A program made the translations under genes and the position numbers. Below the pieces are notes generated by a model. That model did not search any database and was not told where the DNA came from. It saw only the letters and a list, made by a program, of their open reading frames with translations. From positions 2,558,511 to 2,622,510 of the forward strand of contig OY811974.1 of NCBI GenBank assembly GCA_963681505.1: a stretch of 64,000 nucleotides of DNA, given 5' to 3'. Positions 51,701 to 54,700 of the stretch are shown here, piece by piece. The stretch is from Eunapius fragilis (Eukaryota; Porifera; Demospongiae; Spongillida; Spongillidae). Position 1 is the stretch's first letter. The number at the start of each line of letters is the position of its first letter.

Positions 51701-54700
51701 TACATGAACACTAAGGCATGTACACTAAGGCATGTACATGTACACTAAGGCATGTACACTAAGCCATGTACATGTACACTAAGGCATGTACATGTACACT
51801 AAGGCATGTACACTAAGGCATGTACATGTACACTAAGGCATGTACATGAACACTAAGGCATGTACACTAAGGCATGTACATGTACACTAAGGCATGTACA
51901 TGTACACTAAGCCATGTACATGTACACTAAGGCATGTACATGTACACTAAGGCATGTACATGTACACTAAGGCATGTACACGTACACTAAGGCATGTACA
52001 TGTACACTAAGGCATGTACACGAACACTAAGGCATGTACATGTACACTAAGCCATGTACATGAACACTAAGCCATGTACATGAACACTAAGGCATGTACA
52101 TGAACACTAAGGCATGTACATGAACACTAAGGCATGTACATGTACACTAAGGCATGTACATGTACACTAAGGCATGTACACGAACACTAAGGCATGTACA
52201 TGAACACTAAGGCATGTACATGTACACTAAGCCATGTACATGCATAATAAAGTTTCTGACTGGTCACAATAACATTGGATGATTTTTCATGCTCTTCACA
52301 AACAATGGTCTGCTTGTTGCATAACCCGCATCTGAAACATGTAATCTAACATAAGACACAGGCTACTGCAATGTACTGCAGTCTGGATTGCGTTGCATCA
52401 CACCTACATGTATGTACATGCATGTCATATATGCTTGCAACACACAGTGTTATTTACAATACTACTTCCACTCAACGTATTAATTACAGTTTCCGCATGT
52501 ACATGTACTAAAGTAAGGCTGTGGTGTGTGCATACCTTGGGAAGGCTGTGGTGTGTGCATACCTTGGGAAGGCTGTGGTGTGTGCATACCTTGGTGAGCA
52601 GGGAGAAGGCTGTGGTGTGTGCATACCTTGGGAAGGCTGTGGTGTGTGCATACCTTGGTGAGCAGGGAGAAGGCTGTGGTGTGTGCATACCTTGGGAAGG
52701 CTGTGGTGTGTGCATACCTTGGTGAGCAGGGAGAAGGCTGTGGTGTGTGCATACCTTGGTGAGCAGGGAGAAGGCTGTGGTGTGTGCATACCTTGGTGAG
52801 CAGGGAGAAGGCTGTGATGTGTGCATACCTTGGTGAGCAGGGAGAAGGCTGTGGTGTGTGCATACCTTGGGAAGGCTGTGGTGTGTGCATACCTTGGTGA
52901 GCAGGGAGAAGGCTGTGATGTGTGCATACCTTGGTGAGCAGGGAGAAGGCTGTGGTGTGTGCATACCTTGGTGAGCAGGGAGAAGGCTGTGCTGATGCCC
53001 AGGTTCCTGGCCACGTTGATCATCGAGCCATACATTGACAGAAAGCTACTGCCACACTTGTTGGGCTGGAACAGAGGACACAGGAGGTCAGCAAGGGCCG
53101 GCTGTGTATGGAGTGTTGGAAGGATGTTCACCATCTCTGCAGGGTCACTATGGATGAACTCCTGCAAGCAGTTGGGGGAGGGAGAGGTTGTACAAGATAA
53201 ATGAGGGCATGCCAGGCATCATCGACTGCCTGTGGGTCACACATCATGCTCTACACTGTCTGATGGGCACTCAGTGTTGTCACATACTCATCTATGGAAT
53301 TCTCACCTCATCCATGTAGACCCTGCAATCACCACCTCATGCATGTACACCCTGCAATCCCCCTACCAATAGCTTTATGTTTATGTCAGATCAATCGTTC
53401 CAAATCCACCTCTCAAAACCAACCAGTCAACATGCACACACACAGAGAGGTGTTCCCTCACCTGCCCAAGTACTTGCACACAGGTAGTGAAGAACTGGCA
53501 TGTGGGCGGATAAAGGCGTGCTTCCAGATTGATGAACTTGAGCACCTCATAGAACACAGACACCCCACAGTTGAGTGCCAGGTTGACCGGACTACCTGTA
53601 TGGAAGTAAACACCAGTCAACAGAGATGACAACAGTCAGTTGTCCTAATACTGTGTTCACACGACACGTCTTTGGCATGACACAGTACAGAACAGCTCGA
53701 ATTAGTGAGCACCGTTCATATGAATTTGAGGTTGTGTGGCATCGACTGGGTCATAACTTCAGGCGCGTATTAACGGTGCTCAATAATTGAGCTGTTCCGT
53801 CCCATGCTGTACCAAAAGACGTGTAGTGTAAGACAAATGGAACATAAAAAACTGAAGGCACATTTACATGTCCACACGTGTGAACTGAACAACATTTGCA
53901 CGTTGCATTGACCATGTACTGGTAACAGTACATGGTCAATCAGTGTTGAGCCAGTGCAGCTGTATGCCAGAAATCCTGTCTATTCTTAAGGTCCCATAAC
54001 AGGTCTGCTGTACTAACTCGTATACTGCACAATGCATACACACCCACACACCCACACCCACACCCACACCCACACACACACACACACACACACACACACA
54101 CACACACACACACACACACACGTGTGCAAATACATGTACACTCCTGTGTGTAAGAGGGTACTGTAATGAATGCTAACCTTGCATCTGGTGTGCCAACTTC
54201 ACTAGCCGTCTTCAATGTGGAAAAAAAAGAAACACTAAACAGAGCAGCTTGTATACACACGAAGTGTGTGATGCAGTTACATGTACATGCATACATGTGT
54301 ACATGTACATTAACAATGACCATATACATGTACTAACATGTACACACATGTTTGTGTGTGTAAATGTACATGTACATGTATGTGTGTGTGGGTGTGCATG
54401 TGTGTGTGTGTGGGTGTGCATGTGTGTGTGTGTGATAGCACATCTTTAAACAGTGAGGGAGCTCTTGGTACACGCAGTTTATTTCACGTAATGCGAAAGG
54501 AAGAAAAACCAGTCACATGATCTCACCTCTCCCACCCTGCCCACCCTCTCCCCTCCCTCCCCACACTCCACACGTACGCCACCTCTCCCACCCTGCCCAC
54601 CCTCTCCTCCTCCCTCCCCACACTCCACACTTACGCCACATTGTGCTCCATCCTCATCACCGCCATGCACATGTCGTGGGCCACGGGTGTGGTCATGGCA

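Follow-up and report, generated by a model that had tools for sequence, protein, structure and literature searches.

An array on the minus strand of the window, the 64,000-nucleotide stretch of DNA analysed here (C4:2558511-2622510), tandemly repeats the end of an EPG5 exon together with the start of the following intron, and is very probably a 'mirage'-type minisatellite that is tolerated because the exon-proximal donor is used. A segment over the 5' splice site, with 25 nt of exon end and 12 nt of intron start, would have been duplicated in tandem, and this tandem duplication would then have grown to 13 extra copies. A duplication across the donor would leave the upstream exon whole and would therefore be tolerated, provided that splicing keeps to the exon-proximal donor. 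The array has the anatomy of a mirage, an uncommon known class: its units span the exon–intron boundary, the authentic boundary is kept at the edge of the cluster, and AG/GT splice signals are found in many units (AAG|GTATGC in 14 of 14).

Anatomy of the EPG5 array

Much of EPG5 lies on the minus strand of the window, where tblastn matches to stretches of human EPG5 follow the gene order; the best are at 40634-40275 (E 3e-13) and 43430-43089 (E 3e-11), and the weakest listed has an E value of 0.35. Since neither Pfam nor PDB sequences identified EPG5 in searches with the exon translations, we take the gene to be EPG5, and place the exon end, from similarity to the human EPG5 sequence. A match of the array frame to PF00551 (26.0 bits, cut-off 26.1) was ignored as a product of the repeat. 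The exon whose last 25 nt are repeated (52967-53161, minus strand) begins at the acceptor cttgcag|GAG in phase 0, and its tblastn match (53164-52967, E 3.6e-4) ends exactly at LLTK. The previous exon (53462-53591, minus strand; ...YPPTCQFFTTCVQVLGQ) was found by tblastn (E 1e-7) and by a gene-finding script, and the next one (50990-51130, minus strand; YNIQQWLNSH...) has the acceptor cccccag|TATAAT, with a phase of 0 that fits the genuine donor. The script joined 22 EPG5 exons with agreeing phases, some exon ends being uncertain, and gave phase 0/0 between exon 53161-52967 and its neighbours 53591-53462 and 51130-50990. This agreement is partly by construction because the script penalised phase mismatches, but the exon end and the frame at 52967 are fixed independently of the script by the human EPG5 homology.

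The exon end (...CACAGCCTTCTCCCTGCTCACCAAG|GTATGCACACAC) is followed by 13 more copies ending in AAG|GTATGC, and the whole array covers 52515-52991 (minus strand); an earlier note on this DNA had found the array but gave its span as 52515-52985, and the start moves to 52991 once the repeated exon part is counted. The genuine 5' splice site GTATGC, hereafter donor 1, is at 52961-52966 (minus strand), and the 13 copied donors lie within 52530-52929 (minus strand). AAG|GTATGC is present at 14 of 14 donors, 1 genuine and 13 extra, as expected from the roughly 14 tandem copies of the donor reported in that note, which had also correctly identified EPG5, the end of the exon, its phase and the repetition of the donor. 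The donor score is 3.0 at all 14 of them, and the genuine one beats 14 of the 21 other modelled EPG5 donors. The 37-nt unit consists of 25 nt of exon end and 12 nt of intron start, and in a 27-nt form the portion derived from the exon is 10 nt shorter; a unit of 37 bp, as originally described, is therefore found in 8 of the 13 further units, the remaining five having 27 nt. The exact 25-nt exon end is found again in eight units, so that its recurrence is not due to chance, and since the exon part encodes the conserved motif LLTK, copying probably ran from exon to intron. The order of the units is irregular, with internal variants. All three sense frames are open over the array (ORFs 52425-53045, 52480-53019 and 52508-53218), confirming the claim that it contains no stop.

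The acceptor-like character also ascribed to part of the unit turns out to be middling: scored as an acceptor, AAG|G reaches 1.9 at nine of the 14 sites, with -0.7 for the other five (the 22 modelled EPG5 acceptors range from -1.9 to 5.6), and CACAG|C scores -1.7 at 12 of 12 array sites. Each unit could in principle be a zero-length exon (polypyrimidine CTTCTCCCTGCTCACCAAG, then AAG|GTATG) that undergoes stepwise recursive splicing and yields the same final mRNA by every path, since AAG|GT unites an acceptor-like and a donor-like half and the nine sites at 1.9 lie above 7 of the 22 EPG5 acceptors. However, such recursion is very unlikely in view of the five sites at -0.7, and nothing observed requires it. 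An acceptor with A at position -3 is weak, and the usual minimal intron is longer than a unit of 27-37 nt, so that only multi-unit jumps could work. A second possibility, raised in the earlier note, is that a new intron is forming through AGGT-type tandem duplication. The copies do start with AAG|GT, and a mirage-based model of intron gain is presented in PMC3087553, but the idea is barely credible here because the intron is already there. Its acceptor, at 51131, lies about 1.4 kb away from the array, and neither end of the intron duplicates the other, the donor AAG|GTATGC being unrelated to the acceptor cccccag|TATAAT at 51130.

Other repeats are present in the same gene. A second, unrelated 20-bp minisatellite (51309-52242, minus strand) shares the intron with the array, and a related array is found in the pseudogene copy described below. 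Two donor arrays, at 54635 and 57474, are weaker cases within the window. At 54524-54639 (minus strand), 2.1 copies of a 57-bp repeat, with a self score of 35 against a shuffle maximum of 21, duplicate the donor modelled for EPG5 exon 54777-54635 (TGGC|GTAAGT, second copy TGGC|GTACGT), and an array of about six 29-bp units (57303-57474, minus strand) starts at the donor of EPG5 exon 57597-57474, its unit resembling GAAAGG|GTAAGC with the donor changed to GGTGGG; the latter is not significant in the self-score test (22 against a shuffle maximum of 26). (GT)n microsatellites begin directly at three modelled EPG5 donors (62863, 48284 and 45829, minus strand). A 27-bp minisatellite unit (AACTATACAGGGGAACATGGTAGTACT) occurs in 7 copies at 63337-63526 of the window and forms a 45-copy array next door at L016:33-1247. 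A plus-strand reading frame nearby (window 38398-38901) encodes an immunoglobulin domain (PF13927, E 7e-8).

Donor choice and two further arrays

Splicing at donor 1 produces LLTK|YNIQQWL, which is colinear with human LLTKFDLKQWL, and this protein colinearity supports a functional junction at donor 1. Use of later donors had been expected to add 37n nt of open sequence. Because 5 of the 13 units have 27 nt, the real added lengths are 37, 74, 101, 138 ... 431 nt, and there is no simple gain of open sequence: an open in-frame product results from only three of the 13 extra donors, namely 5, 8 and 9 (+138, +249 and +276 nt), and the other ten shift the frame and run into a stop in the next exon. 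Donor 1 would thus make the functional mRNA, the copies being mostly intronic passengers, and use of a later donor would mostly lead to stops and likely to nonsense-mediated decay.

Two further arrays have a comparable arrangement. In the continuation of EPG5 beyond the window (L016, C4:2622511-2632510), the end of exon L016:9060-8872 reads GCTTACAA|GTAGGT, and next to it comes an array of 27-bp units (L016:8095-9060). Its donors of AA|GTAGG type total 29, and 19 of these are GTAGGT; splicing at the first one gives TAYK|LGAWQF, which has one residue fewer than human KAKRLGIWLF. The other array is in PGAP1, on one of four 10-kb stretches taken from a random list (L025, C11:1895520-1905519), where three joined exon peptides match PF07819 (E 1.4e-26). 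PGAP1 exon L025:6051-6147 has the end AAGAGACCAG|GTGAGC, after which an array of 36-bp units contains 27 AG|GTGAGC donors in all, two in most units; exon and array together occupy L025:6051-6714. When PGAP1 is spliced at its first donor, the PF07819 alignment spans the junction with no net gap and reaches 100.4 bits, compared with 76.6 bits before the junction. Only about 8 nt of exon are repeated in each of these two arrays, as against 25 nt in the window array. In both, the frame is open only from the first donor over the tested stretch of the next exon (107 nt for EPG5 and 62 nt for PGAP1).

These arrays bear on the possibility that the copied donors are used, producing either a ladder of EPG5 isoforms lengthened by 46, 83 or 92 residues (donors 5, 8 and 9) or frame-shifted unproductive forms. 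All 14 donors score equally (3.0), in-frame isoforms are possible since donors 5, 8 and 9 retain an open frame, and the gene-finding script even preferred donor 8 (exon end 52718) to donor 1, a choice probably due to the open, coding-like reading of the array and the lack of a penalty for inserts. Yet an insert would split two conserved blocks, LLTK and YNIQQWL, as judged by tblastn with the human sequence, and an open product results from 0 of 28 later donors in the second EPG5 array, on the N-terminal side, and from 0 of 26 in the PGAP1 array, so that both genes would be disabled if later donors were generally used. Use of the copied donors is therefore rather unlikely, although it deserves more weight than recursive splicing. 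Less likely still is a regulatory role, in which the exon-proximal one of 14-29 near-identical donors is picked, the decoys are unproductive, and the length of the array would act as a heritable, fast-mutating rheostat of productive EPG5 or PGAP1 mRNA.

A pseudogene copy and the frequency of donor-spanning arrays

A DNA search of the 219-Mb genome (24 contigs) gave 8 matches among the best candidates scored, with one other strong match at C4:10029917-10030137. This match lies 7.4 Mb from the window array in a rearranged partial copy of EPG5 (C4:10020878-10033974), whose main aligned pieces are 72-90% identical to EPG5 and in which 9 of 13 aligned exon copies carry a stop or a frame shift. The pseudogene array has no exon in front of it and contains 6 donor-bearing copies, compared with 14 in the window array; CTTACC replaces CTCACC in 6 of 6, and over 222 ungapped columns the adjoining intron matches in 204 (92%). 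The presence of unit copies without an exon indicates that the array predates the duplication and persists without a splicing role, which also shows that no role in splicing is needed for its maintenance. The array would accordingly have existed before the partial duplication of EPG5, and the variant fixed in one copy suggests that it may have been homogenised on at least one side since. The pseudogene (L019, L009) has an internal inverted duplication, and one of its junctions joins the array to the equivalent of window position 46381, beside a 25-bp minisatellite (46395-46742), so that this junction has tandem repeats on both sides.

Tandem repeats are generally error-prone in assemblies, and a collapsed or expanded repeat could mimic such an array. 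An assembly artefact is nevertheless extremely improbable, since a diverged copy with its own fixed variant lies elsewhere on the same chromosome, and the unit order is irregular with internal variants.

The overlap of minisatellites with donors was examined in a sample of 157 minisatellites in 324 kb (48 records, with L001-L008 left out). The sample is non-random, as it includes the window, the array-matching stretches, 30 kinase loci and the pseudogene region; about 10% of it is minisatellite sequence, and in the four random stretches the share is 21% (8,395 bases out of 40,000). Enrichment of donors within minisatellites was rejected, since the observed counts are near the expectation from shuffled units: 39 of 157 minisatellites have a donor-like site scoring at least 2, against 37.7 expected, and the corresponding figures are 18 against 15.4 (at least 3), 5 against 4.3 (at least 4) and 2 against 0.9 (at least 5).

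A script predicted 157 exons with a score of at least 10 (1 in decoy sequence) and 217 with a score of at least 8 (13 in decoy sequence), of which 148 and 199 were kept after exons lying mostly inside arrays had been dropped. In the first set, minisatellites contain 3 of 148 donors, none of the 148 acceptors and 43 of 730 positions in intron interiors (donor versus interior, p = 0.07). In the second, the numbers are 4 of 199, 0 of 199 and 58 of 974, with donors depleted relative to the interior (p = 0.02), and two of the four donor cases are doubtful, L016 minus 5177-4738 being beyond the homology and L016 plus 3057-3190 opposite an EPG5 exon. The difference between donors and acceptors is not significant in either set (p = 0.25 and 0.12, respectively). 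The PGAP1 exon is outside these counts because it was found via the flanks of a high-scoring array and is absent from the predicted set. A stricter self-alignment test placed 2 of 146 donors, 0 of 144 acceptors and 21 of 288 interior positions in repeats. Within the EPG5 model alone, 5 of 22 donors exceed the shuffles, three of these being GT runs; among the 22 acceptors the only one to do so is 51130, with a score of 22 against a shuffle maximum of 21 in a C-rich tract. Preferential seeding at donors was thus rejected, because donor junctions are not inside minisatellites more often than intron interiors. Since the genome is rich in minisatellites and there is no excess at donors, the donor-spanning arrays look like a by-product of this richness.

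Significance and relation to known systems

The added interest lies in three natural arrays, with 14, 27 and 29 donors, that occur in a pair of conserved genes; in two of the arrays the frame is open only from the first donor. To our knowledge, the choice among several equal 5' splice sites has mostly been studied with few engineered copies. If RNA shows clean use of donor 1, the arrays would offer a natural system for testing how splicing selects the exon-proximal donor. Silicatein-like exons at several sites of the genome, at most 77% identical to a sponge silicatein and matched by cathepsin L relatives as well, suggest a demosponge host. Mirages are described from amphioxus only in the available part of PMC3087553, and a sponge host would widen the class, although an earlier report elsewhere is possible.

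Literature matches listed for EPG5, sponge and splicing together included none that was relevant by title. Turri et al. (1995), judging from the title, reportedly described a minisatellite with several splice donors serving an interferon-induced human transcript, presumably IFI6/6-16. That minisatellite and the EPG5 array are alike in carrying splice donors; whereas several donors reportedly serve the human transcript, splicing at the later EPG5 donors would in most cases disrupt the protein. The origin of introns in tandem arrays or by AGGT duplication is reportedly treated by Zhuo et al. (2007), and Canestro et al. (2002) is reportedly an earlier reference for amphioxus mirages. According to PMC4974935 and PMC2812944, introns of this origin share with the EPG5 array in-gene tandem copies with AG|GT, but the EPG5 array sits inside an intron with its own unrelated 3' end and makes no new intron.

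The closest likeness is to the mirages of amphioxus, tandem repeats over the exon–intron boundaries of Adh3 and of the globin genes BflGb6 and BflGb9, as described in PMC3087553. Many of their units contain AG/GT, and at Adh3 the units measure 10-72 bp; to judge by RT-PCR, regular splicing is undisturbed, and the copy number differs between haplotypes (PMC3087553). Amphioxus mirages and the EPG5 array are alike in their minisatellite-like boundary copies, AG/GT units, authentic boundary at the edge of the cluster and concerted evolution within the cluster. They differ in that both 5' and 3' boundaries are duplicated in amphioxus, whereas the three strong cases here are all at donors. In comparison with the mirages reported there, the arrays here reach 27-29 donors and one of them has a pseudogene copy, the evidence being from sequence here and including RT-PCR in amphioxus.
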